This document shows positions 11,985 through 39,633 of a stretch of DNA of 64,000 bases, piece after piece; position 1 is the stretch's first letter; every line of letters begins with the position of its first letter. A program made the translations under genes and the position numbers. The DNA is taken from the NCBI RefSeq assembly GCF_034377285.1, contig NZ_CP139715.1, forward strand, positions 682,001-746,000. Direction: 5' to 3'. The notes below the pieces were generated by a model. That model saw only the letters and a list, made by a program, of their open reading frames with translations. It ran no database searches and had not been told where the DNA came from. Source of the DNA: Thalassobaculum sp. OXR-137. GTDB lineage: Bacteria; Pseudomonadota; Alphaproteobacteria; Thalassobaculales; Thalassobaculaceae.

Positions 11985-12002
11985 TTAACCTTCTACGGTT
12001 AA
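11985..12002. other. Short inverted repeat at deoC / DUF2806 convergent ends
   Basis: The sequence TTAACC-N6-GGTTAA is a perfect 6-bp palindrome overlapping the stop codon of the convergent DUF2806 gene, 28 bases after deoC. It could act as a weak transcription terminator or mark the junction of foreign DNA. No T-run follows on either strand, so the terminator role is only a guess. Confidence 0.35.
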
Positions 12003-12952
12003 GCAATAACCTCAATTTGCAAACCGCGAGTAATCATTTCAATTCTCTTGATGCCAACTTTTCCAGATAACTTTCTAGCCGCTATACGGATATTAGCCGG
12101 ATAATCAGGCTCCTCCAGAATGCTACCAAGTTCACGGCCAATACGAGTGAACTCTATACACTGCCAACTGGCGTTACATTCTTGCGAAAAATGGACTCGC
12201 AAAAGAGTCGTGCCGGCAGACATAGGACTCCATAGCGCGTCACCATTATAAACTGGTCGATAGGGAGGTAGAAACTGATTTATTTTTGTCTGGGCCATTA
12301 GGCCAGCTTCTGCCATCCGTTTCCAACGACTGAACCATTCCCCGCGCGCGAACTCCTCATTATAGTCAACCGCACCACCGACGCTCTTTGACCAAACCAA
12401 ACTAAAATCTTCGGCAGTAGATTTGTCTAACTCACTCACCGTCCGAAGCGTTGATAAGGAAAAAGAACCATTCCGCATCACTTCGCCTGCGAGGATTCGT
12501 GCAAACAAGTTCTGTAGTTGCTCGGATGATGCATCATCAGCGAGCCGCATGAACTTGTTCATCCAATCATCGTCGGGTGGTGCCGCTTCGCTAGAATTGG
12601 TCTTTCCTACTTGATCGACTGTGTATTCTGCAGCCTTCTGCGCAATCTGCACGCGGTTTCTAGCTTTGCGAACGGCCGACGGTAGATAAATTTCCATGGC
12701 CAGCTGCATAATTGCGGGATCATTTAACGCGCTTTCGGCTACACCCTTTGCCAGAACCGCGGAAACTGTCGATCGTGCCGCCGTGACATCATTTATGGCT
12801 TGTGCGGGGCGCTTTAGCCACGCTGCAGGTATTGCCGTTGCGCTGCCAATGAGGTGGCTAACGGCCTTGAAAAAACTGGTTTCAACTGGGGCAGGCAAAC
12901 CGCTGATACTGTCAGCAATCGCCTCCAGAGCAGATGATTTCTCTTCGGCCAT
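11999..12952 (-). CDS. DUF2806 domain protein, low-GC, probably acquired
   Basis: A 317-residue protein of unknown function. The central part WMNKFMRLADDASSEQLQNLFARILAGEV followed by GSFSLSTLRTVSELD matches the DUF2806 pattern I recall. The N-terminal half is alanine-rich and helical, and there is no clear signal peptide or membrane helix. Base composition differs strongly from its surroundings: sampled 60-base lines count 45% and 55% GC, against about 70% in neighbours, and codons with A/T third bases are common. This indicates horizontal acquisition. It is a single gene between convergent deoC and a co-directional chemoreceptor, with no integrase nearby. No function can be assigned. Confidence 0.75.
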   Translation of the reverse strand: MAEEKSSALEAIADSISGLPAPVETSFFKAVSHLIGSATAIPAAWLKRPAQAINDVTAARSTVSAVLAKGVAESALNDPAIMQLAMEIYLPSAVRKARNRVQIAQKAAEYTVDQVGKTNSSEAAPPDDDWMNKFMRLADDASSEQLQNLFARILAGEVMRNGSFSLSTLRTVSELDKSTAEDFSLVWSKSVGGAVDYNEEFARGEWFSRWKRMAEAGLMAQTKINQFLPPYRPVYNGDALWSPMSAGTTLLRVHFSQECNASWQCIEFTRIGRELGSILEEPDYPANIRIAARKLSGKVGIKRIEMITRGLQIEVIA

Positions 12953-13019
12953 GTAGTCCCGCCGTCCAGCCGATCACGGGCTTTAGTATAAAAAGAAATC
13001 TGGTTGAAATCTACAGAGG

Positions 13020-15053
13020 CTATATATTCTTGAACTTCCTCAGGAAGGCGTCGACCGCCTCGGTGACTTTCCGTTCGGCCTCGTCGACGCGCCGCATCTG
13101 CTGCATCACGTCCCGCGCCGCCGTGGCCGCCTCGGCGGAGGCCGCTTCGACGCCGCCGATGTTCTGATCGACCGCCGTCACACGCTGGGCCGTGTCCGCC
13201 ATGTTGCCGGTGATGTCCGACGTCACCGCACCCTGCTCCTCGGCGGCGGTGGACATGGCCGTGGCCTGTTCGCGGACCAGCTCGATGGCCTCGGTGATCG
13301 ACCGGATGGCGGCGACATTCTCCCGCACCGCCTTGGTGACGCTGTCCACTTCGGAGCCGATCTCCTCGGTGGACGCGGTGGTCTGGGAGGCGAGCTTGCG
13401 GACCTCTTCCGCGACCACGGCAAAGCCGCGCCCGGCATCGCCCGCCCGGGCCGCTTCGATGGACGCGTTCAGGGCGAGCAGGTTCGTCTTGTTGGCGATG
13501 TCCTTGATGAGCGTGACCACGCCGGTGATGCGCTTGGTCGCAGTCTCCAGATTCTGCAGCGACGAGGTCGCCACCGCCGCCCGGTCGGAGGCGTCTTCGG
13601 TCAGGCCGGAGGTCTTGGTCACCCCCTTGACGATCTCCTGGATGGACGACGCCATCTGATCCATCGCCACGGCGACGATGGAGACGTTCTCGGAGGCGGC
13701 AACCGAGTTCTCCTTGACGACGGAGCCCTGGCGGTTCGTCGATTCCGCCGTCGCGACCATCGATTCAGCGGAGATCTTGGAGCGTTTCGACGCCTTGTGC
13801 AGGGCGTTCATCGCGCCGACGACGCTGTCGTGGAAATCCCTGCCGAGCGCCTGCACCGGGCGCAGGAGAATCATCGACAATCCGTAGCCGCAGGCCAGGA
13901 TGATCAGGCCGAACACGCCCAGGGTGACAATGGCGCTGCGGATCGAGGCGTTGGCATCCGCCATCGCCTCTTCCTGGGTCACCGAGAGGATGATCTTCCA
14001 GTCGAGCCCGGGCAGGCTGACCTGCTCGAAGCCGGCGATGACCGGGATGCCCTTGTGATCCAGCGCGGCGACGCGGCCCTGCGTGCTTTCGAGGGCCCGG
14101 GTGACGACCTCGCTGGACATCGGCGACCCGATGGCGAGATTCTCCGCATTCTGAGGAACGGACCGCAGCTGGCCGTTCGAGCCCATCAGGAAAGTTTCGG
14201 CGGTCTCGAAGCCGGCGATGTCCTTGTTGACGATCGCGTTGATCCGATCGACCGGCATCTGGAACGCAATAATCCCGATGAGCTCGCCGTTTTCCTTCAG
14301 GGGGGCGAGCAGGAACGAGGCGTCCTGGTTGTAGGACGGCTCGTAGGGCTCGAAATCGACGAAGAGGATGTCGTCCGACTTGTCGCGGATGATCTGCTGA
14401 ACCGCCCGTCCGAAAGCCGACCCGCTATAGGGACCGTCGACGAAGGACGTGGAATAGTCGAGCTCCTTGAAGACGGAATAGACGATCCGGCCGTCCTTGG
14501 GTTCGAACAGGAAGATGTCGTAGAACGCGAACTCTTCCAGATACGCCTTGAAATACGGGTGATAGGTCTCGTGGAGGCTGGAATACCGGCTGCCGTCGCC
14601 TGCCGCCATGAGCAGGTGCTTCTCGCCGATTTTCTCGGGATTGTCGGAAATGTAGAGGTGCTGAAGCGTCTCCGAGATCGGATCGATCTTCATCCACCGG
14701 TCCAGATCCGCCTGGGTTGCCCCCGCGGTATTTTCCTGCTGGTAGCGGTAGCGCTGCTCCAGGCTCTCGGCGTTTATGGCTGCGGAGGTGTCCAGCTCGT
14801 CGATCGCGGCGGTGAAGGCCCGCGTCGCGTCGGTGACCACCGGATTGATCGCGAGCGTGCGCGCGATGCTCAGGAGCGTTCCGAAGTAAGTCTCGACCAT
14901 CTCCTGCTTCAGGTCGACGACGGAGGCGATTTCCGCACGGGCCGCGTCTTCGGCCATCGTGTACATGCGGGAGATATCCAACACGGAGCTGACGATCAGA
15001 GGCAGGATGCCGGCCGCCAGCAACGCACCCATAACCTTGTATTTGAACTTCAT
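13020..15053 (-). CDS. methyl-accepting chemotaxis protein, membrane-bound
   Basis: A 677-residue chemoreceptor. A membrane helix near residues 8-28 ([17 protein letters not shown]) is followed by a ~340-residue periplasmic region, probably a Cache-type ligand domain. A second helix lies at ~375-395 ([18 protein letters not shown]), then a linker and the cytoplasmic signalling coil. The highly conserved hairpin tip, [20 protein letters not shown] followed by [12 protein letters not shown], lies near residues 515-550. It would pass an attractant or repellent signal to CheA/CheW. The start at 15053 places the first membrane helix directly after a short basic N-terminus; an alternative ATG is at 15113. 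No che genes are in the window. Confidence 0.93.
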
Positions 15054-15214
15054 CGCCGATGGATCACATTCTGTTTCCCACACATATCGACGTACCAGAT
15101 TTCGAGACGGCATTCACACGATATGTCGATGGGCATGCCGTCGGATAGGGGTCCGCTGCGGACGAGACACCGGAGGGGCTTTCCGACGCGCGCCCCGCGC
15201 CGGAAAGCAGCGCC

Positions 15215-16159
15215 TCAGTTCACCGGCGTGATCAGCGGCTTGCCGGCGAGACCCGCCAGGGCGTTCTCCATCACCAGCCGGCCCATGGCGAGGCGGGTGT
15301 CATGGGTGGCGCTCGCCTGGTGCGGCTGCAGGACGACGTTCTCGGTCATGTCCTTCAGCGCCTGGGGCACCTTCGGCTCCTGCTCGAACACGTCGAGGCC
15401 GGCGGCGCCGAGCCGTCCATCCTTCAGCGCCTCGATCAGGGCCGCCTCGTCCACCACCGAGCCGCGGGCGACGTTCACCAGCACGCCGGCCGGGCCGAGC
15501 GCGTCGAGAACCTCGCGGTCGATCATGTGCTTGGTGGACGCCCCGCCCGGCACGATGGCGATCAGGAAGTCCACGTCCTTCGCCATGGACAGCAGATCGC
15601 CGTAATAGGTGTAGGGCACGTCCGTCTTCTTGCTGCGGGTATGGTAGGCGATGTCCATCTTGAAGCCCTCGCAGCGCCGGGCGATCTCGATGCCGATGCG
15701 GCCGAGGCCGAGGATGCCGACCTTGCGGCCATGCACCCGCTGGGTGAAGGCCATGTTGCCCTCGCTCTCCCACTTGCCGGCGCGCACATAGCGGTCGGCA
15801 TGGGGGATCTTGCGGCAGGTAGCGAGCAGCAGGCCCAGGGCGAAATCGGCGACCTCGTCGCTCAGCACGTCCGGGGTGTTCGACACCTTGATGCCGCGCT
15901 CGGTCGCCGCCTTCACGTCGACCCCGTCATAGCCGACGCCGTGATGGGCGATCACCTTGGCCTTGGGCAGGGCGTCCATGATGTCGGCGCCGCAGGCGGT
16001 GGCCCCGGCGATCGCCTCGCAGCGGTCGGCGATGGAGGCGAGCAGGCCCGCCTTGTCCTTGCTCTCCCAGAGCTTGTGGACGGTGAAATGGTCGTCCAGC
16101 TCCTTCATGGCGACGTCGTACCAGGGGGAGATGACGAGGAGATCGGGCTTGGTGCTCAC
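15215..16159 (-). CDS. D-isomer-specific 2-hydroxyacid dehydrogenase
   Basis: A 314-residue NAD(P)-dependent dehydrogenase, similar to glyoxylate/hydroxypyruvate reductases. Features are the dinucleotide motif GILGLGRIGIEIARR, the catalytic arginine in NVARGSVVDEAAL, the glutamate in LDVFEQEP and the histidine in LQPHQASATHD. It interconverts 2-oxo and D-2-hydroxy acids in the cytoplasm; the exact substrate is unknown. Translation starts at a GTG (16159) with AAGGA about 8 bases upstream. It lies downstream of, and in the same direction as, the DUF924 gene, 56 bases away. Confidence 0.92.
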   Translation of the reverse strand: MSTKPDLLVISPWYDVAMKELDDHFTVHKLWESKDKAGLLASIADRCEAIAGATACGADIMDALPKAKVIAHHGVGYDGVDVKAATERGIKVSNTPDVLSDEVADFALGLLLATCRKIPHADRYVRAGKWESEGNMAFTQRVHGRKVGILGLGRIGIEIARRCEGFKMDIAYHTRSKKTDVPYTYYGDLLSMAKDVDFLIAIVPGGASTKHMIDREVLDALGPAGVLVNVARGSVVDEAALIEALKDGRLGAAGLDVFEQEPKVPQALKDMTENVVLQPHQASATHDTRLAMGRLVMENALAGLAGKPLITPVN

Positions 16160-29883: not shown

Positions 29884-32016
29884 TCATCCGCGATAGGCCA
29901 GCCGCAGATTGCCCCAGATCCGGTTCGCCACGCGGATCGGGCAGTCGACCTCCTTCAGCACCTGCTTGTTGCCGCCGCCCATGTCGCGCACGTAGCTCTG
30001 GATCTTGTAGGGCTCGGTATTGCGGGCGGCGAGCAGGCCGGCGCGGTCGTCGAAGATCCGGCGGTTGCGGCTGTTCGCGGTGTTCCAGACCGTCTCCCCC
30101 GGCTTCTGCGGCTTGGAGAAGGCGGCGTTGTGGGTGGGGAGATAGGCGTTCCGGTCGACCGCGGCGCAGAACACGATGGCCGAGTTCTTCGCCACCACCG
30201 CCTCCTGGATCGCCGGGAACTGCTCGTCGGTCAGCGCCAGGAACCGGGTGGAGTACTGAACCGGATCGGTGCCTGCGATCGGGACGTAGTCCTCGTCGAA
30301 CAGGCCCGCCTGGTCCAGCCGGCCGGAGGAGAGCGCGCTCGCCAGGATGCCGGACAGCCTCTCGGCCGCGTCCCGGCACAGATCGACCAGCGGCGCGTCC
30401 TTGACCTTGGTCGCCTCCATGGCCTGCCGCACGCGGGCGAGGTCGGCGGCGCTCGGGTCGAGGAACTGAAGATGGGAGCCGAGCGGGCTGCTGCCGACCA
30501 CCCGGATCGGCATCCGGCCGATCCCCTCGACGTCCACCGCTCCGGTCTGCCCGGTGGCCGATTCCTCCAGGCCGGGGAAGAACAGTCCGCCGGACGGGGA
30601 GAGGTCGATCACGTGACCGGTCAGCGCGGCGCTTCCGACGGACAAGGTACCGGCAATGCCGACCGACACCCGCTCCGACTGTCCCGCCTGGCCGGTGCTG
30701 GAGGTGCGCAGCATGGTGACGATCCGCCGTTGGAGATCGCCCACATCGCGGCCGAGCCGGGTGGCGACCTCCGACAGCCGGTCGGCGGCGCGCAGGGACA
30801 TCTGGGCGGTGTCCTGGATTGCCCCGATCTGGTCGGCAACCTGCCCGGTCTCCAGCGAGGCGCGTTCGGCGCTGCGGGCGATCTCGGCGATGGCGGCGCG
30901 CTGTTCGTCGGCGGCCGACGAGACCGAGCCGGCGCGCTGGGACAGTTCCTCCACCCCGGCGACGATGCTGCCGAGGGCCAGATTGACCGAGTCGGTGGAT
31001 TCGGAGATCTGCTGGGTGCGTTCATGGACCGAGGCGATCGCCTGCTCGGTTTCCGCCGCGAGGCTCTTCACCTCGCCGGCCACCACGGCGAATCCCTTGC
31101 CCATGTCGCCGGCGCGCGCCGCCTCGATGGTCGCGTTCAGGGCCAGCAACCGGGTCTGTTTGGCGATGTTACGGACGAGTTCCGTCACCCCGCCGATCGC
31201 CGCCGCACTCTCGGTCAGGGCGGCCATCGCTGCCTTCGCCCGGTCGATATCCGCCAGGGTGTCCTCCGCCTTCAAGGCGGCACCGGTTGTCTGGTCGGAG
31301 ATCTCCTGGCTGGAGGCCTCCATCTCCTGGGAGGCGCTGGCGACGATGTTCACGCCCTCGCGGGTGTTCTCCGCACTGGCGGCGACCGTGCCGGTGGCCG
31401 AGGTCACGTCCCCGGCGATGCCCTCCAGCTGCCCGGCCACCTGGGTCAGGGTCTGCACTTGGTGGCGCACCTCCGAGAGGGTGGTCGACATCTCCCGTTC
31501 CAGGCTGTCCGACATGGCGGCCAACCGTCCCGCCGCATCGCCGTCCGGTCCGGTGCCCGGCGCGGCGCCGAGGCCGGCGGCCAGATCGGCGAAACAGCGG
31601 CGCAGGATCGTGCGGATCGCCTGCTCCTGCCGGTCCGATTTCCGCACGCTCTTCAGCGCACCGACGACCAGCTCCTCCGTCAGGGCTTCGTACTCGGCGA
31701 TGGCGGCGGCGGTCCCGATGCCGGCCTCGGAGCGCATCCGGGCGATGGTCGCGGACGTGGCGAACCGGGTCTCCCCCTGCGCCGCGGAACCGCTCGACAT
31801 GAGGGCAGCCCAATGCTCCTTCTGGGCACGCATGAAACGGTCGAGATCGCCGTTCTCGAAATGGGGAGCGATGTCGGAGCGGCCGATGCCCGAGCCGTAG
31901 AAACCCTCCAGCGCGGACCGCGCCAGCCGGTCGCCCTCGGGAACCGCTCCCTGGTCATCCAGCCGGAACAATCTTTGGATTTCCGCGATTTCTGGCGCGC
32001 CACTCCCAGACTTCAT
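29884..32016 (-). CDS. cytoplasmic chemoreceptor: globin-like + MCP + PilZ + C-terminal sensor domain
   Basis: About 710 residues without a membrane helix. Residues ~1-150 resemble a protoglobin sensor: [32 protein letters not shown], then [19 protein letters not shown]. Aligned by eye to globin-coupled sensors, the heme-ligand histidine position is an arginine. The MCP hairpin tip ([19 protein letters not shown]) is near 280-320. A PilZ-like segment at ~450-530 has DLSPSGG but a degenerate RxxxR (SERVSVG). The last ~170 residues form a further Cache-like domain ending [15 protein letters not shown]. The ATG at 32016 is favoured because AAGGGGG is 7 bases upstream; an ATG at 32022 adds two residues. 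Ligands are unknown. Confidence 0.85.
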
Positions 32017-32079
32017 GCCCATTCCCCCTTACGGTCACGGTCTTTTTGCGCGATGACGCGAGGGGCCGGGGGTCTTTTC

Positions 32080-32940
32080 TTATGGGCTGAGTAACCACCT
32101 GCCGGGGGTCCCCGCCATCGTGTCGCCGGCCATGCGCCACCGTCCCGACAAAAATACTATCACGCCGAATATGGGCATGCTCTTCATAATCGTCTCATAT
32201 TCAATCAATCCGAACTGTAGGGCGCGGTCGATCTCGATTTCTGAGAGTGACCCTACTTTTAATACGACTTCCCGGTCTCCGAGATCGCTGTCCGGGTCCT
32301 CGGCCGAGGCCGGCCCGCGCCGGATTGCCGGATGGCCGGGCAGGTCGACCGCATTGCCGATCAGCGTGGCGGCCACATCGGCGGTCGCCGCATCCAGGGC
32401 CAGGACTGTCACCGCATCGGCGATCCCGAAGGAGTAGGAGCGCCCGCCGCGCCCGCTGGTCGCCACCCCGCGCACTGGGTCGGCGTGGCTCAGGACGGCG
32501 GTCCCGGCGAGGGCGGGCGCGTGCAGTTCCGGCACCAGCCCGACCTCGAAAGTCTGTCCCGGCGCCAGATGAAAGGAAATGTCGCCGCCGTCGTTCACCC
32601 AGGCGCGGGAGAGGTCGGGTGCGGCCGCCAGCATTACGGCCAGGATGTGATCGGCGACGGATCCGGCGACGGCGGCCATCGGCGTCACGAACCGACCGGC
32701 ATAGGGGGCGACGGCGGCGACCATGCGGCGGGCCACGGGACCGCTTACCCCCGGCGGCGGATCGACGATGGGTCGACGCAGGATCGTCAGCTCCCCCGCC
32801 AGCTCGGCCAGCAGCCCGTCGAAGGCGGCGACAGCCGCCCGCGCCGCGGCCTCGTGACCGGGGCCTTCCGCCTTGAGGATCAGGTCGATCGGGCCGTCCT
32901 GCAGGTGTATGCGGCCGTCGGAAAGGCGGGCGGCCTGCAT
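32080..32940 (-). CDS. UPF0280 family protein
   Basis: A 286-residue protein of the UPF0280 family (ApbE-related fold). Matching segments are DLILKAEG, MVAAVAPYAGRFVTPMAAVAGSVADHI, AWVNDGGDISFHL, GVATSGRGGRSYSFGIADAVTV and ADVAATLIGNAVDLP. No biochemical function is established. The distant relation to ApbE flavin transferases suggests a role with flavin or redox cofactors. It is the last gene of the molybdenum-hydroxylase operon, 8 bases after the 6-hydroxynicotinate-reductase-like gene, with GAGG before the ATG. The final ~35 codons are noticeably more AT-rich than the rest. Confidence 0.85.
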   Translation of the reverse strand: MQAARLSDGRIHLQDGPIDLILKAEGPGHEAAARAAVAAFDGLLAELAGELTILRRPIVDPPPGVSGPVARRMVAAVAPYAGRFVTPMAAVAGSVADHILAVMLAAAPDLSRAWVNDGGDISFHLAPGQTFEVGLVPELHAPALAGTAVLSHADPVRGVATSGRGGRSYSFGIADAVTVLALDAATADVAATLIGNAVDLPGHPAIRRGPASAEDPDSDLGDREVVLKVGSLSEIEIDRALQFGLIEYETIMKSMPIFGVIVFLSGRWRMAGDTMAGTPGRWLLSP

Positions 32941-32948
32941 GCCCGGCC

Positions 32949-34439
32949 TCAGCCGCCGCGGGCGGTCGTGCCCTGGGGCAGATAGGGCCAGGGATTGTCC
33001 GACGCCTGGGCTTCCCGGCGCAGATCCGGCCGGCTGTCCAGCACGTCGGCCAGAGGGCGGATGGCGTCCATGTAGCCGCCCAACTCCTCATAGGCCCAGC
33101 GCGGCAGGGTGAACTCGATCGGGGCGACCAGGGCCGGGGTCGGCACATAGCCGAAGGCGCCTTTCGGCAGGCGGGTCACGTCGACCATCAGCGTGATGCC
33201 GCCGCCCGGCCAGACATAGACCGGCGCGCCGCCGCAGGTGACCCGGGTGATCGCCGACTGAACCGAGCGGGTGAGCCGCACCGGGTTCTCGGTTACCCCG
33301 GCCCGCAGGCTGCCGCCGGCCCCGCCCATGAACAGCACGGTGCACAGCGCCGGTTCGCAATTCTCGCCGATCCGATCGACCACCACCTCCAGCGGTTTCG
33401 GCATTGGTTTGGCGACGAAATTCAGCCCGTCATCCAGCTCAAAATAGGCGCTGTCCTCGCCGGTCGTGGAGACCATGAGGATCCGTTCGCCGGGCCAGGC
33501 GGTCTTCGGATCGACCCGGTCGATGATGTCCAGCGGGTCGGTCACGTCGGTGCCGCCCCAACCGGAGCCGGGGTCGGCCACCTGGAAATACCGGCCGGGG
33601 GTGGATTTGCGGCCCCGCACCCGGATGCCGCCGGGCTTCATGTCGAGGAACTTTCCGGCCTGGTGCTCGCTCAGCACGCCGGTGATGTGGTCGTCCACGA
33701 CGATGACCTCGTCGGCATGGCCGAGCCACTGGCGCGCGAAGATGCCGATGGTGGCCGAGCCGCAGCCGACCCGCATCCGCTCCTCCTGCTTGCCGTCGAC
33801 GATCGGCGGCTTGCCGGCCTGGACGGTGACCTTGCTCCCGCCCTCGATCTGCAGGTCCACCGCCTCGCCGTTGCACAGGGCCAGCATGGCGGCGCAGGTC
33901 ACGGTGCCTTCCTTCTTGCTGCCGCCGGTCAGGTGGCGCACGCCGCCGAGCGACAGCATCTGGCTGCCGTATTCCGCCGTGGTCACATGGCCGACCGGCT
34001 CGCCATCGGCCAGCACCTGGGCCTGCTCGGGGCCGAGATGGCGGTCGGTGTCGATCTTCACCTTCACGCCGCAATAGCTGAAGATTCCCTCGGTCACGAC
34101 GGTGACCGTGTCCACTCCCTCCCACTGCGCGCCGACGATGAAGGGTGCCGGCTTGTAGTCGGGATAGGTCGTGCCTGAGCCGATGCCGGTGACGAAGACC
34201 GGCGGCTCGGCGACGATCCGGCCGTCCCAGTCGGATGCGTTCTCCAGGAACGGGACGACGGTGCCGTCGCGCTCGATCGCCCGCTCTGTCACCACCAGCG
34301 GGTCGAGGCGGACCAGGTCGCCGTCCACATTGGCGTAGCGGTCACAGGCGCCGGACTTGCCCTCGCGGATCCGGCAGAGCACCGGGCAGGCGTCGCAGCG
34401 CACGATGCCGTCGGGCAGGGTTTCCGTTTCCGCACTCAT
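32949..34439 (-). CDS. 6-hydroxynicotinate reductase-like iron-sulfur protein
   Basis: A 496-residue protein resembling 6-hydroxynicotinate reductase (Hnr) of Eubacterium barkeri, which reduces 6-hydroxynicotinate to its 1,4,5,6-tetrahydro form. The N-terminus has a cysteine cluster CDACPVLCRIREGKSGACD suited to an iron-sulfur cluster. Further conserved-looking parts are IGSGTTYPDYKPAPFIVGAQ, SYCGVKVKIDTDRHLG, MRVGCGSATIGIFARQW and a glycine-rich VLFMGGAGGSLRAGV. The ATG overlaps the stop of the Mo-subunit gene by 4 bases, so it is made together with a hydroxylase able to create a hydroxylated ring. Assignment of the actual substrate is inference. Confidence 0.75.
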   Translation of the reverse strand: MSAETETLPDGIVRCDACPVLCRIREGKSGACDRYANVDGDLVRLDPLVVTERAIERDGTVVPFLENASDWDGRIVAEPPVFVTGIGSGTTYPDYKPAPFIVGAQWEGVDTVTVVTEGIFSYCGVKVKIDTDRHLGPEQAQVLADGEPVGHVTTAEYGSQMLSLGGVRHLTGGSKKEGTVTCAAMLALCNGEAVDLQIEGGSKVTVQAGKPPIVDGKQEERMRVGCGSATIGIFARQWLGHADEVIVVDDHITGVLSEHQAGKFLDMKPGGIRVRGRKSTPGRYFQVADPGSGWGGTDVTDPLDIIDRVDPKTAWPGERILMVSTTGEDSAYFELDDGLNFVAKPMPKPLEVVVDRIGENCEPALCTVLFMGGAGGSLRAGVTENPVRLTRSVQSAITRVTCGGAPVYVWPGGGITLMVDVTRLPKGAFGYVPTPALVAPIEFTLPRWAYEELGGYMDAIRPLADVLDSRPDLRREAQASDNPWPYLPQGTTARGG

Positions 34440-37192
34440 TCCGCCGCCTCCTTCGCCTGGGCGGCCCGGATCGCCGCGCGCAGACGATGGGGCAGGACCG
34501 GCACCTTGTCCGGGCATACGCCGACCGCCTGGCGGATGCCGGCGAGGATGGCGGGCGCCGTCGGCACCAGGGCCGGCTCGCCGATCCCCTTGGCGCCGAA
34601 CGGGCCGAGGGGCTCCGGATCCTCGATCAGGATGCAGTCGATCTGCGGCATGTCGCCGACCGTGGGGATCAGGTAGTCGTGCAGGTTCTCGGTGCGGCCG
34701 GGGACGTATTCCTCCATCAGCGCCAGGCCGAGCCCCTGGGCGATGCCGCCATGGATCTGCCCCTCCACCAGGGTCGGGTTCACCGCCCGGCCGACATCGT
34801 GGGCGGCGGTCATGTGCAGCACCTTGGTGGTGCCGAGCTCCGGGTCGACCTCCACCAGCGCGATCTGGGCGGCGAAGGCGTAGGTGGCGTAGGGGGTGCC
34901 CTGGCCGTCGCCGTCGAGCGGAGCGGTCGGCGGGTCGAACGTCCCCTCGCCCACCAGCAGATGTCCGTCGCCATCCACCGGCAGGGTCGACAGGTCCAAC
35001 TCCCGCGTCCCGGCGGCGTCGCGGATGGCGATCCGCGCCCCGTCGAAGGACTGGTCCGCATCCTCGCCCGCATTGGCTAGCCGCAGGATCTGCGCCCGCA
35101 GGTCGCGGCCGGCCAGCTCCGAGGCCCGGCCGGACACGAAGGTCTGGCGCGAGGCGGAGGTCTTGCCGGCATCGGGCGTCAGGTCGGTATCGCCCCAGAC
35201 CTGATCGACCAGGGCCAGCGGCGCGCCCAGCGCGTCGGCGGCGATCTGCGCCATGATGGTGTAGCTGCCCTGGCCGATATCGACCGCGCCGTTGAACAGG
35301 GTCAGCCGCCCGTCCGGCTTCAGCGCCAGGCGCATGGTGGACGGGTTCGACATGGAGGTGTTGCCGCAGCCATACCACATGCAGCCGATCCCGGCGCCGA
35401 GACGGGTTCGACCGGCTTTCGCATTGTGGGCCGCGACCTGCTCGGCATAGCGCGCCCAGGCGGGCTTCAGGGCTTCGATACACGCGGCAAGGCCAACCGA
35501 AGCCTCGATCACCTGACCTGTTGCCGTCGGGTCACCGACGCGCAGGGCGTTCAGCAGCCGGAACTCCAACGGGTCCATGCCGATGCTGGCGGCCGCTTCG
35601 TCCATCAGCCGCTCGCCGATGATGGCCGCCTGGGGCACGCCGAAGCCGCGGAAGGCGCCCGCCGGCGGCCCGTCCGTATAGACCGCCGCACTGGTCGCGA
35701 GCACCGAGCCCACCCGGTAGGGACCCGGGGCATGGACCGGCACCCGGCCCGCCACCGTCGGCCCCCAGGAGGCATAGGCGCCGGTGTCGAAATCGCCATG
35801 GAACCGGAAGCCGGCGATCGTGCCGTCTCGCCTCACACCCAGGCTCGCGGTCATCGCGGCCGGGTGGCGTTTGGTGGTGGCGGCGAAACTCTCCGGGCGG
35901 TGATAGAGCGTCGCCACCGGCCGGCCGAGCTTCCAGGTCGCGACCGCCAGGGGGAGCTGGATCGACTGGTCGAGCTTGCCGCCGAACCCGCCGCCGACGG
36001 CCGACGGCGTCACCCGCACCGCCTCCTGCGGAACGCCGAGCACATGGGCGACCTCGTCGCGGTCCATATAGGGGGTCTGGGTGGTCACCCGCAGTTCGAC
36101 CCGGTCGCCGACCCGCCGGGCCCAACCGGCCTCGGGCTCGATATAGGAATGCTCCACGAAGCTGGTCTGCATGGCGGCCTCGACCACCGCATCGGCGCCG
36201 GCCAGGGCCGAGTCGATATCGCCGGACGCCACCCGGCCGCGGATCAGCACGTTGCCGGGCGACGCCTCATGCAACTGCGTGGCGCCGTCCTTCAGAGCCG
36301 CCTCGATGCCGACCACCGCCTCGCGCGGCGACCACTCGACCGGGAAGTCGGACAGGTCCACCGCCTCGAAGGCCGCCCGGTCGGCGACCACCACCGCGGC
36401 CACCGCCTCGCCGCGATAGCGCACGAAGCGCTCGGCGAAGACCGGCTGATCCTTCAGGGTGGGGTAGATGCCGAAGCTGTTATGCCCCGGTACGTCGCGG
36501 GCGGTGAGCACCGCCACCACCCCCGGCGTCGCATCGGCCCAGGCGTCGAGATCGCCGAGCGAAAAATCCGCCAGCGCATGGGGCGAGCGCACCACCCGCA
36601 GCCAGAGCGCGTCGGCCGGCGTGGTGTCGTCGCCATAGAGCTCGCGGCCGTCCAGCTTGCCGCTGCCGTCCAGCCGCGCGACCCGCGCGCCGACCGCCGC
36701 CCCGGGTTCCGGCATCCCGGCGTCGGGCGCGTTGGAGGCGACGTCCAGCACCGCCTCGACGATCTTCAGATACCCGGTGCAGCGGCACAGCACCCCGCCC
36801 AGGGCATCCTCGACGGCGCTCCGGCTCGGTTGCGGCTCTCGGCGCAGCAGATCCTCCGCCGCCATCAGCATGCCCGGGGTGCAGATCCCGCATTGGGCGG
36901 CCCCGTGACGGGCGAAGGCGCGCTGCAGGGCGGAGTGGGACCCGTCCGTTTCCGCCAGGCCCTCGACGGTCACGATCTCGCAGCCAGCGGCCTGGCCGGC
37001 CGGGACGAGACAGGCGCAGATCTGCGCGCCGTCCATTAGCACCGTACAGGCCCCGCAATCGCCGGCATCGCAGCCGACCTTGGTGCCGGTAAGGCCCAGA
37101 TCCTCGCGCAGCACCCGGGACAGACGCCGCTGCGGGGCGGTCTCGACGGATCGGGGCGTGCCGTTGACGGTAAAGCTCAGCATCTCGGTCAT
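34436..37192 (-). CDS. xanthine dehydrogenase-family fused [2Fe-2S]/molybdopterin subunit
   Basis: A 918-residue fusion. Residues 1-~155 carry two [2Fe-2S] clusters: GCDAGDCGACTVLMDG with its later cysteine, and CGICTPGML with LCRCTGYLKI. After a linker, residues ~165-918 form the molybdopterin subunit: VGGGFGGK, GAFRGFGVPQAA with the substrate-orienting arginine, VDIGQGSYT and the catalytic glutamate in KGIGEPALV. These enzymes hydroxylate heterocycles or aldehydes using water and a Mo cofactor. Small and large subunits are usually separate genes, so the fusion is distinctive. Start at 37192 overlaps the upstream stop by 4 bases. The substrate is unknown, most likely an N-heterocycle. Confidence 0.9.
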   Translation of the reverse strand: MTEMLSFTVNGTPRSVETAPQRRLSRVLREDLGLTGTKVGCDAGDCGACTVLMDGAQICACLVPAGQAAGCEIVTVEGLAETDGSHSALQRAFARHGAAQCGICTPGMLMAAEDLLRREPQPSRSAVEDALGGVLCRCTGYLKIVEAVLDVASNAPDAGMPEPGAAVGARVARLDGSGKLDGRELYGDDTTPADALWLRVVRSPHALADFSLGDLDAWADATPGVVAVLTARDVPGHNSFGIYPTLKDQPVFAERFVRYRGEAVAAVVVADRAAFEAVDLSDFPVEWSPREAVVGIEAALKDGATQLHEASPGNVLIRGRVASGDIDSALAGADAVVEAAMQTSFVEHSYIEPEAGWARRVGDRVELRVTTQTPYMDRDEVAHVLGVPQEAVRVTPSAVGGGFGGKLDQSIQLPLAVATWKLGRPVATLYHRPESFAATTKRHPAAMTASLGVRRDGTIAGFRFHGDFDTGAYASWGPTVAGRVPVHAPGPYRVGSVLATSAAVYTDGPPAGAFRGFGVPQAAIIGERLMDEAAASIGMDPLEFRLLNALRVGDPTATGQVIEASVGLAACIEALKPAWARYAEQVAAHNAKAGRTRLGAGIGCMWYGCGNTSMSNPSTMRLALKPDGRLTLFNGAVDIGQGSYTIMAQIAADALGAPLALVDQVWGDTDLTPDAGKTSASRQTFVSGRASELAGRDLRAQILRLANAGEDADQSFDGARIAIRDAAGTRELDLSTLPVDGDGHLLVGEGTFDPPTAPLDGDGQGTPYATYAFAAQIALVEVDPELGTTKVLHMTAAHDVGRAVNPTLVEGQIHGGIAQGLGLALMEEYVPGRTENLHDYLIPTVGDMPQIDCILIEDPEPLGPFGAKGIGEPALVPTAPAILAGIRQAVGVCPDKVPVLPHRLRAAIRAAQAKEAAE

Positions 37193-38028
37193 GCCGCCTC
37201 CGCCAGGTCGGTCAGGCAACGCCGCACCAGAATGCGGGCGGTATCCAGCCGATAGGGGGCATCGCCCCGCACATCGGCGATCGGCGCCAGGGCGGCGAGA
37301 TGACTGTCGTCCAGCCGGTCCGCCGCCCCCCTCGGCGACAGCCCGACCAGCGCGTTCTCCAGCGCCTCCAGCCGGAGGGCGGCGGCGGAGCAGGCGCCCA
37401 CCGCCATCCGCGCGGCCGCGACGGTTCCGTCGGGCGCCAGCCGCATGGTTCCGGCGACCATGACGATGGAAATCACCAGATAACGCCGCGCGCCCAGCTT
37501 CAGGAACCGGCCCGTCCCCTCCAGCGCGGTCTGCGGCAGGTGGATGGCGGTCAGCAGCTCACCCGGCGCCAGCGCGGTCTTGCGGTTGCCCAGCACAAAG
37601 CGGTCGAGCGGCAGACGGCGAGTTCCGCCGATGGAGGCCAACTCCACCTCGGCATCGAGGGACAGCAGGGCCGGTACCCCGTCGGCGGCGGGCGAAGCGT
37701 TGCAGAGATTGCCGCCGACCGTCCCCCGGTTCTGGATCTGAGCGCCGCCGATCTCCCGTGCCGCCGCCTTGAGCCCGTCGCAGGCCGGCGGCAGGTCGGC
37801 GTCGATCACCGCCCGCCAGGTCGCGGCCGCGCCGATCCGAAGGCCGGCCGCGGTCCGCTCGATCCCCTTCAGGGCCTCGAGCGCGGTGATGTCGAGGATG
37901 TCCTCGTCGCGGTCGTGGATCGCACGTGCCGGAAAATGATCGGTCCCGCCGGCGAGCACCGTCCAACGGTCCTCCGCCAGTTCGCGAAGGGCCTCGTCCA
38001 GGTTGCGTGGACGCAGATATCGGCTCAC
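37189..38028 (-). CDS. xanthine dehydrogenase-family FAD-binding subunit
   Basis: A 279-residue FAD subunit (CoxM/XdhB type) that passes electrons from the iron-sulfur clusters to the final acceptor. The FAD motifs are VLAGGTDHFPARA near residue 25 and the second loop TVGGNLCNASPAADGVPALL near residue 105; the C-terminal CO-dehydrogenase flavoprotein domain follows. Translation starts at a GTG (38028) with GGAGG 5 bases upstream. It is the first gene of the four-gene operon, which is divergent from the DUF1194 pair. A palindrome that could bind a GntR-type regulator lies 27-46 bases upstream. Confidence 0.9.
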   Translation of the reverse strand: MSRYLRPRNLDEALRELAEDRWTVLAGGTDHFPARAIHDRDEDILDITALEALKGIERTAAGLRIGAAATWRAVIDADLPPACDGLKAAAREIGGAQIQNRGTVGGNLCNASPAADGVPALLSLDAEVELASIGGTRRLPLDRFVLGNRKTALAPGELLTAIHLPQTALEGTGRFLKLGARRYLVISIVMVAGTMRLAPDGTVAAARMAVGACSAAALRLEALENALVGLSPRGAADRLDDSHLAALAPIADVRGDAPYRLDTARILVRRCLTDLAEAA

Positions 38029-38054
38029 GGCACCTCCGGCGGACGGCTTTAAAT

Positions 38055-38074
38055 TTCATTCGTACACCAATGAA
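38055..38074. promoter_or_regulatory. Palindromic operator candidate upstream of the Mo-hydroxylase operon
   Basis: TTCATT-N8-AATGAA is a perfect 6-bp inverted repeat. Within it, on the minus strand, TGGTGTACGA fits the T-N-G-T-N-N-A-C-N-A core typical of GntR regulators of the FadR/FCD type. It lies in the 133-base gap between the FAD subunit and the first DUF1194 gene. TTGACC also occurs further upstream on the minus strand but I see no good -10 partner. The regulator gene is not in the window. Confidence 0.4.
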
Positions 38075-38161
38075 GTGTGCCACGAGTTTGTGAGCGGTCA
38101 AGGGGTCGCGCCGGTGTCGCGGCACTGGATTTGGCCACAATCGGATGCAAGTCTTTCCACC

Positions 38162-38950
38162 ATGAGAGCGCCGCATTTCCTTCGCCGGTTTGCCCGTGCC
38201 CTTCGACCGGCGGTCGTCGCGGCGCCGTGGGTCGTGGCCCTGGCCTGCGCGGCCCCCGTCGCCCAGGCCCAGACGCCGGTCGACCTCGCCCTTGTTCTTG
38301 CCGTCGACAGCTCCGCCAGCGTCGACGAGTCCGAATTCGCGCTGCAGCGCGGCGGCCTTGCCCAGGCCTTTCGCGATCCGGAGGTGGTGAAGGCCATCGC
38401 CAGCGGCCCGTTCAAGCGGATCGCCGTGACCGTGATCGAATGGGCGGGCCACGCGGACCAGTCGGTGGACATTCCCTGGACCGTGGTCGACGGTCCGGAC
38501 GGGGCCACGGCGCTGGCCGACCGGATCGACGGATTGCAGCGGCAGATCCTGACCGGCGCCACCTCCATCGCCGGTGCCCTCGACTTCGCCAACGCCCTGC
38601 TGCACGCCAATCCGTTCGACGCCAGCCGGCTGGTGATCGACCTGTCCGGCGACGGCCGCAACAACCAGGGCCCGCCGGTGGACACCGTCCGCCAAGGCAT
38701 CGTCGCCCAGGGCGTGACGATCAACGGCCTCGCCATCGTCAACGAGCATCCGACCCTGAACTACTATTTCGAGGACCGGGTGATCGGCGGCACCGCCGCC
38801 TTCGTGGAGGTGGCCAACGACTACGCCGACTATCCCCGGGCCATCCGCCGAAAACTGATCCGCGAGATCCGCACGATGAACATCAGCGCCCCCGCCGCCC
38901 CGCTCCCGGCCGGAGCCGCGGCAACAGTCCTGGCCGCCGATCGATGGTAG
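38162..38950 (+). CDS. DUF1194 (VWA-like) exported protein, paralog 1
   Basis: A 262-residue protein with a long signal peptide (basic start, hydrophobic AVVAAPWVVALACAAPVAQA, cleavage near residue 36). The mature part is a von Willebrand A-like domain of the DUF1194 family: LVLAVDSSASVDESEF contains the DxSxS metal site, followed by ITGATSIAGALDFAN, a strand LVIDLSGDGRNNQG and NGLAIVNEH. Such domains bind a divalent metal and protein partners; the role in the periplasm is unknown. It overlaps its paralog by 7 bases, giving a two-gene operon. Confidence 0.87.
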   Translation: MRAPHFLRRFARALRPAVVAAPWVVALACAAPVAQAQTPVDLALVLAVDSSASVDESEFALQRGGLAQAFRDPEVVKAIASGPFKRIAVTVIEWAGHADQSVDIPWTVVDGPDGATALADRIDGLQRQILTGATSIAGALDFANALLHANPFDASRLVIDLSGDGRNNQGPPVDTVRQGIVAQGVTINGLAIVNEHPTLNYYFEDRVIGGTAAFVEVANDYADYPRAIRRKLIREIRTMNISAPAAPLPAGAAATVLAADRW

Positions 38951-39633
38951 CGTCCATGCGGGTCCTGGCAGCGATCCTGGCCGGCCTTCTGCTGGCGGGC
39001 CCGGCGCAGGCGGCGGAACCGGTCGATCTGGAGCTGGTCCTCGCCGTCGACAGCTCCGCCAGCGTCGACTACACCGAGTTCAACCTGCAGCTCCAGGGCC
39101 TGACCCTCGCCTTCGAGGACGAGGAACTGGCGAACGCGATCGCCGCCGGACCGCTGGGGGCGATTGCCGTCACCCTGGTGGAATGGTCGAGCGCGGAGCG
39201 CCAGGAGGTGTCCATTCCCTGGACGGTGATCCGCAATGCCGACGACGCCCGCGCCTTCGCCGCCGAGATCAGCGCCGCCCCGCGGCAAGTGATCACCGGC
39301 GCGACCTCGATCTCCGCCTCGGTGCTTTACTCGGCCGCCATGTTCGACGCCAACGGGTTCGAGGGGACCCGGAAGGTGATCGACCTGTCCGGCGACGGCT
39401 ACAACAACCAGGGCCCGGCCCTGGCGGTGGCCCGCGACCTGGTGCTGGAGCGCGGGATCACGATCAACGCGGTGGCCATCGAGAACCAGGTGCCGGGGCT
39501 GGGCGACTATTTCGAGGAGAGCCTGATCGGCGGCTTCGGCGCCTTCATGATCCGGGCGTCCGACTACGAGGACTATATCGGCCAGATCCGCCGCAAGCTG
39601 CTGCGCGAGATCCAACCGGTGCCGATTTCTTAG
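38944..39633 (+). CDS. DUF1194 (VWA-like) exported protein, paralog 2
   Basis: A 229-residue paralog of the preceding protein, clearly a tandem duplicate: it repeats LVLAVDSSASVDYTEF, VEWSSAERQEVSIPWTV, ITGATSISASVLY, VIDLSGDGYNNQG and YFEESLIGG in the same order. The signal peptide is shorter (MRVLAAILAGLLLAGPAQA). Two starts are possible: 38944, used here because it overlaps the upstream stop, and 38956, which begins directly with the signal peptide. The MIDAS residues are kept, so both copies should bind metal. A family B repeat follows the stop. Confidence 0.87.
   Translation: MVASMRVLAAILAGLLLAGPAQAAEPVDLELVLAVDSSASVDYTEFNLQLQGLTLAFEDEELANAIAAGPLGAIAVTLVEWSSAERQEVSIPWTVIRNADDARAFAAEISAAPRQVITGATSISASVLYSAAMFDANGFEGTRKVIDLSGDGYNNQGPALAVARDLVLERGITINAVAIENQVPGLGDYFEESLIGGFGAFMIRASDYEDYIGQIRRKLLREIQPVPIS

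Follow-up and report, generated by a model that had tools for sequence, protein, structure and literature searches.

The reductive catabolism of nicotinate, as described for Eubacterium barkeri and for Azorhizobium and Bradyrhizobiaceae SG-6C, begins with a molybdenum hydroxylase, continues with 6-hydroxynicotinate reductase (Hnr) and makes use of an enamidase. The Hnr of E. barkeri is reported by Alhapel 2006 to carry a covalently bound flavin and several iron-sulfur clusters, and it may have been purified as a single kind of subunit. One published account links Hnr clusters of Azorhizobium and Bradyrhizobiaceae to the breakdown of nicotinate via THON. It also presents a cluster that encodes the first three steps together with an ABC transporter and two unknown but conserved proteins, and gives 42% for the Hnr of SG-6C compared with that of E. 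barkeri (PMC3511419). In the literature searched, the UPF0280 (COG2122) family has been given a role in anaerobes only, in the synthesis of homocysteine and the use of sulfur. In Desulfovibrio, COG2122 is needed genetically, along with DUF39, to form homocysteine (r = 0.98, 170 fitness experiments), with a role in persulfide modification suggested for COG2122 (PMC5764234), and COG2122 relatives have been assigned to sulfur trafficking in Methanosarcina (PMC12068725). MA1715 and DvMF_0044, which are the COG2122 proteins acting with DUF39 in homocysteine synthesis, and DVU1097 (2o34) belong to the same family as the UPF0280 protein studied here; in alphaproteobacteria, Hnr takes the place of DUF39 as partner.

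We have analysed 64,000 nucleotides of Thalassobaculum sp. OXR-137, the whole of which is called the window, and have found in it an operon of four genes on the minus strand, reading from 38028 to 32080 (Table 1). The FAD/Mo and Mo/Hnr junctions are 4-base overlaps, and 8 bases separate the Hnr and UPF0280 genes. The coordinates, the overlaps and the Pfam and NCBIfam matches agree with the four overlapping or nearly overlapping genes of a preliminary description of this DNA, and the conservation of the set across genomes, which it had proposed as a check, has been found on locus reading: the order FAD-Mo-Hnr-UPF0280 recurs in many genera, beyond chance. Promoter and terminator scans of the operon have given no signal exceeding that of shuffled sequences.

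Table 1. Genes of the operon, with positions in the window.
Feature	Position	Strand	Remarks
FAD-binding subunit, xanthine-dehydrogenase-family molybdenum hydroxylase	37189..38028	-	279 aa, GTG start
Fused 2Fe-2S and molybdopterin subunit, hydroxylase proper	34436..37192	-	918 aa
Hnr-like (6-hydroxynicotinate reductase-like) putative iron-sulfur protein	32949..34439	-	496 aa
UPF0280 (COG2122) protein, predicted ApbE-superfamily fold	32080..32940	-	286 aa

The FAD subunit matches the Pfam families FAD_binding_5 (4.2e-41) and CO_deh_flav_C (6.7e-11), and the Mo subunit matches Fer2, Fer2_2, Ald_Xan_dh_C, MoCoBD_1 and MoCoBD_2, no NCBIfam equivalog reaching its cut-off for the latter. Pfam and locus reading have placed a molybdenum hydroxylase beside Hnr, as in the reductive nicotinate pathway; unlike the clusters of that pathway, the window operon has no adjoining transporter, regulator or amidohydrolase, as read from its open reading frames. 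Hydroxylation followed by ring reduction, which had been taken for the logic of the operon beforehand, matches known reductive nicotinate catabolism. Since this order is known in Alphaproteobacteria, the pathway type is not new, and the earlier suggestion of an undescribed pathway is not supported, Hnr clusters having already been linked to nicotinate breakdown (PMC3511419).

To the observed gene set, UPF0280-Hnr co-occurrence and HyuA clade, and to the ApbE-like fold modelled for UPF0280, we add by inference a substrate, an electron donor, flavin attachment and ring opening by HyuAB, as follows. The molybdenum hydroxylase would hydroxylate the ring, the conversion of nicotinate to 6-hydroxynicotinate being the likeliest case, and Hnr, taking electrons from a ferredoxin-like donor, would reduce the hydroxy/oxo ring. 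The product would be a lactam, which in the known pathway is 1,4,5,6-tetrahydro-6-oxonicotinate. UPF0280 would be a dedicated and obligate maturation factor of Hnr, not of the molybdenum enzyme, and would most likely place or covalently attach the Hnr flavin by means of an ApbE-type fold with a chemistry differing from that of canonical ApbE. Opening of the lactam would then fall to HyuAB, an ATP-dependent enzyme whose genes lie about 1.2 Mb from the operon and which would replace the classical enamidase. Taken as a whole, the model of an operon for the first two steps of nicotinate-type N-heterocycle reduction, with UPF0280 maturing Hnr and HyuAB opening the lactam, appears to us slightly better than an even bet.

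No Pfam family reaches its cut-off on the Hnr-like protein, which owes its name to its relatives and to the literature on such clusters (PMC3511419): in 26 plasmid records with relatives at 62-71% identity, the protein is annotated as 6-hydroxynicotinate reductase in 17 (62.5-69.2% identity) and as hypothetical in 3, with no annotation at that place in 6. Cysteines 15, 18, 22, 32, 123, 226 and 361 are conserved across 137 sequences and may be ligands of iron-sulfur clusters. The stretch D-D-H-I-T-G-V-x-[S/T]-E-H is also unusually conserved, with S or T at position 257 in 137 of 137. A structural model (pLDDT 83) has found no match among solved structures at E <0.001 in Foldseek and no convincing relative over the full length, so that an experimental structure of Hnr would be informative. 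A barrel like the C-terminal one of GcvT recurs weakly at about residues 124-211, with a best structural Z of 5.0, and Pfam GCV_T_C has been found in 20 of 21 Hnr members, below cut-off in the window protein; it is too weak a clue to the identity of Hnr to be relied on. A suspected kinship of Hnr to DUF39 has been dropped as well, Pfam scans of 21 members having given no HcyBio match at E up to 10.

The distribution of the two downstream genes has been followed in 385 evenly drawn alphaproteobacterial genomes, 76 of which have matched Hnr with 0.001 as the upper limit of E. Eight weak matches (G094, G113, G131, G216, G245, G309, G338, G408; E 1.6e-4 to 9.8e-4) cover residues 6-43 only, the Cys motif that is also the source of a weak AmmeMemoRadiSam match, and have been dropped, leaving 68 genomes. 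The genomes with Hnr and those with UPF0280 form identical sets, 68 and 68 of the 385 (Fisher 2e-77, with genomes treated as independent and kinship ignored); counted by genus, UPF0280 is present in 41 of 276. Gene order has been read at 101 loci, including two same-contig pairs (L094/L165, L095/L167). A first set of 63, of up to 25 kb, comprises 44 loci from the 68 class genomes, 16 from the bacterial family of the window genome and 3 from the 26 plasmid records; a second set of 38, of up to 8 kb, has been found by an AT-biased DNA pattern aimed at the Hnr of Firmicutes, and all 38 stretches carry Hnr under proteobacterial titles, none being titled Firmicutes. Among the probed genes, UPF0280 comes right after Hnr and in the same orientation at 63 of 63 loci of the first set, small unprobed genes in between being possible, and at 32 of 38 of the second. 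Three of the other six stretches end at Hnr (L170, L192, L198), one has UPF0280 upstream within the same cluster (L172), and two have no UPF0280 within the 8-kb stretch around Hnr (L179, L195); the gene has been found in seven of seven genomes queried, among them all six without the standard order. An apparent Hnr-UPF0280 gene fusion (L191) reads across an assembly gap of N and has been discarded.

Among plasmids, 27 records contain UPF0280, namely the 26 with Hnr and pBPS33-1 of Hydrogenophaga sp. BPS33, which has four UPF0280 places, two of them, in the stretch read, within repeated units with IS1071. Just before each of the two places read lies a C-terminal remnant of Hnr, matching residues 470-505 of a Comamonadaceae Hnr with 45% identity (E 3.8e-6, that stretch alone being searched), so that in this exception, too, an Hnr-UPF0280 pair seems to have been broken. 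The repeated units also carry genes for a Rieske oxygenase and a PDR/VanB reductase as well as transporter genes, and the repeats suggest amplification of a catabolic segment.

The hydroxylase follows Hnr less strictly. It had been asked beforehand whether UPF0280 and Hnr are conserved together with it; conservation of the set is supported, the FAD/Mo pair being present, entire or partial, at 84 of the 101 loci. Six of the 17 loci without it are uninformative, with less than 1 kb visible upstream of Hnr (L173, L178, L189, L193, L196, L197); at the 11 with at least 2.5 kb visible, UPF0280 is kept in 10, and a different hydroxylase is present at some of the loci without the pair (L022, L128). 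UPF0280 is tied to Hnr and not to the hydroxylase, which is new here; the literature searched contains no report of a link between the two, most subscription papers being outside reach. The sequences compared are proteobacterial, and the co-occurrence applies to Proteobacteria. Within Proteobacteria the obligate pairing offers a tractable system for the UPF0280 family, with one client, one helper and a measurable cofactor.

Genes of the AA_synth family (PF06684) have been observed at 61 of the 101 Hnr loci, often in pairs (e.g., L021, L118, L132), and may perhaps encode a further pathway step or helper. Some loci, L128 and L217 for example, look like the cluster described in PMC3511419, and the two conserved unknown proteins of that cluster are likely UPF0280 and AA_synth.

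The UPF0280 protein of the window passes the NCBIfam model NF003322 (PRK04334) with 335 bits against a cut-off of 290. Its structural model (pLDDT 93) matches DVU1097 (2o34) best (Z 19.8, 214 residues, 3.3 A), which is also the sole convincing match in a PDB sequence search, followed by ApbE, Ftp and FmnB (Z 13.7-16.5, 201-219 residues, 3.0-3.5 A); uricases, at a Z of about 8, lie well below these ApbE-type matches. A relation to flavin-handling ApbE, which had been proposed from the sequence, accordingly reappears in the modelled fold. When compared with seven ApbE proteins, the UPF0280 profile has given a probability of 94.5% (E 7e-8, 99 columns), and the alignment brings the Ser of the ATSG motif onto S162, the Asp of AD..AT onto D188 and the His of YSH onto F171. 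The catalytic residues of Vibrio cholerae ApbE are Ser241, His257 and Asp285 (PMC12052999), which we have assigned to these motifs via the 16- and 28-residue spacing in L210. Two of the three catalytic positions are kept in UPF0280, S162 and D188 being conserved in at least 98.5% of 128 sequences, and the catalytic His is missing. UPF0280 therefore resembles ApbE, Ftp and FmnB in its modelled fold, in motifs of the GGD, ATSG and AD..AT types and in where the catalytic Ser and Asp sit, but it lacks their catalytic His and, in the profile alignment, the DPxTG loop; an export signal has not been seen by eye. The partner differs as well: the usual target motif of ApbE partners, D-x-x-[ST]-G-A-[ST], occurs in none of 137 Hnr sequences and none of 72 Mo-subunit alignments. 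A similar D..[ST]GAC at the N-terminal Cys motif of Hnr (41 of 137) has been rejected as an ApbE target, as it has Cys instead, most likely an Fe-S ligand. Canonical ApbE is absent from 8 of 12 Hnr-bearing genomes, 21 genomes having been searched, and for this reason cannot substitute everywhere; the window genome has one.

On this basis, UPF0280 probably accompanies Hnr as a helper in cofactor acquisition, and we infer that it matures Hnr, perhaps by flavin attachment. The hunch that UPF0280 serves this system has gained from its sharing the distribution of Hnr in the 385 genomes and from the ApbE-like modelled fold. That flavin attachment is preferred goes back mainly to the covalent flavin which the Hnr of E. 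barkeri is said to carry. Co-occurrence alone cannot separate a maturation factor from a subunit, and a heteromer, in which UPF0280 is a subunit or an electron-transfer or binding partner of Hnr, would account equally well for the shared distribution and the nearly invariant gene order. We regard such a heteromer as unlikely, considering that UPF0280 is modelled with the fold of transferases that handle flavin and keeps their active-site Ser and Asp positions, that the window UPF0280 has not a single Cys and so could hold no Cys-bound Fe-S cluster, that in two genomes the gene lies outside the 8-kb stretch around Hnr, and that the E. barkeri enzyme may consist of one kind of subunit. More doubtful still is that UPF0280 provides Hnr, or the Mo cofactor, with sulfur or persulfide, in line with what has been proposed for COG2122 and DUF39 in homocysteine synthesis. 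The requirement for COG2122 together with DUF39 in Desulfovibrio and the persulfide role suggested for it (PMC5764234) speak for such a supply, as do three invariant Hnr cysteines beyond the N-terminal four, but DUF39/HcyBio occurs in 0 of the 385 class genomes, the window genome included, the same model matching 3 of 14 control genomes, so that homocysteine synthesis does not account for UPF0280 here. Nor is any Cys found among the residues conserved in the 128 UPF0280 sequences, and UPF0280 stays at nearly all informative loci missing the FAD/Mo pair, where another hydroxylase may serve. The preference for a maturation factor over a subunit or a sulfur carrier has come from the fold, the absence of Cys and the background on the E. 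barkeri enzyme. A more far-reaching proposal, which we put forward tentatively and think rather less probable than not, is that UPF0280 founds a second class of flavin transferases, cytosolic, without the His and descended from ApbE, each member being dedicated to a single Fe-S reductase of the cytosol. In Proteobacteria this would be Hnr, and in anaerobes perhaps the DUF39/NIL-ferredoxin homocysteine synthase. If this were true, the conserved Hnr stretch around position 257 would be the first candidate for the flavin site.

Regarding the ring opening, the amidohydrolase linked to Hnr in Sulfitobacter (L021) is presumably the enamidase, judging from its family and position. The window genome has no close relative of it (the best match, at E 2.6e-4, spans a portion of the query; a more distant amidohydrolase may be present), while the same query has reached 3.8e-197 and 1.2e-205 in two genomes that possess it, and the classical route is therefore incomplete there. 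Nine HyuA matches have been found in the window genome, one of which, at C1:1889812-1891899 with hyuB adjoining, lies about 1.2 Mb from the operon and groups with 18 Hnr-linked HyuA and six counterparts from the family in a clade of 25 rows (support 100/100). Three other HyuA paralogs of the genome included in the tree stand outside this clade, as do the HyuA match in locus L107 and the second one in L115 (35-36%), which have been set aside. The family HyuA may lie either within or beside the Hnr-linked HyuA. The earlier statement that later pathway enzymes are absent accordingly holds within the window, but not for the genome, which has a HyuAB of the Hnr-linked clade elsewhere. Ten open reading frames beside this HyuAB have been scanned, of which 7 have a Pfam family, none indicating the substrate (2-keto-3-deoxy-galactonokinase, KDPG aldolase, GNAT, two peptidase M20, S24, HicB-like).

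With 58% identity as the lower limit for scoring HyuA as present, the family genomes of at least 90% completeness have both Hnr and HyuA in 13 cases, Hnr only in 1, HyuA only in 0 and neither in 6 (Fisher 1.8e-4, kinship ignored); in the whole family, incomplete genomes included, the counts are 14, 7, 2 and 13 (p 0.002, kinship ignored). Four of the seven genomes with Hnr only have been read: in G011 and G020 the Hnr-linked amidohydrolase adjoins Hnr, and in G012 and G026 neither ring opener is present in the stretch read. Among the 101 Hnr loci, 16 have the amidohydrolase and 21 the HyuAB of the Hnr-linked clade, and none has both (chance 0.017 if independent). The two labels interleave on the Hnr tree with 5 changes, 4 of them forced by well-supported branches, the window row being entered as HyuAB although its HyuAB lies elsewhere. 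We read this as a repeated replacement, new here, of one ring-opening enzyme by another, unrelated one beside Hnr. The alternation would provide a testable second ring-opening route and would correct pathway predictions that allow for the enamidase only.

The same observations bear on the substrate. A heterocycle other than nicotinate is a serious candidate, to which we give somewhat less than an even chance; it could be a different pyridine carboxylate, a pyrimidine or a similar compound, and HyuAB would open its lactam or imide after reduction. The lack of a close relative of the presumed enamidase and the presence of the Hnr-linked HyuAB in the window genome would both fit such a substrate; the Mo subunit stays below every equivalog cut-off, and the loci with a NicAB-like hydroxylase and an amidohydrolase (L128, L217) are built differently. 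Against it, the ring-opener labels interleave with at least 4 changes on a tree whose Hnr are 60-95% identical to the window protein, which is most simply explained by an identical or almost identical reduced product. Nicotinate stays our likeliest substrate.

Some further features of the surroundings have been recorded. The window has a GC content of 0.66-0.73, falling to 0.61 at 12001..16000. Two single-contig genomes of 1.5 Mb (G001, G005; 99% complete) are classified in the genus of the 5.6 Mb window genome, and neither Hnr nor UPF0280 has been found in them; their small size may reflect either strong genome reduction or a classification oddity. Adjoining the operon on the plus strand is a tandem pair of related genes (38003..38950 and about 39004..39633, about 53% identity), of which 2-3 copies stand beside the operon in eight of nine family loci examined (L082-L088, L100), L089 being the sole one without. 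On the other side, beyond the downstream end of UPF0280 and 57 bases from it, a gene of the same orientation that reads like a methyl-accepting chemotaxis protein (29884..32022, minus strand) adjoins the operon in three of three same-genus loci with 73-75% identity, but this search has given no match in six further loci of the family (L085-L089, L100); its product could be a chemoreceptor for the pathway substrate.
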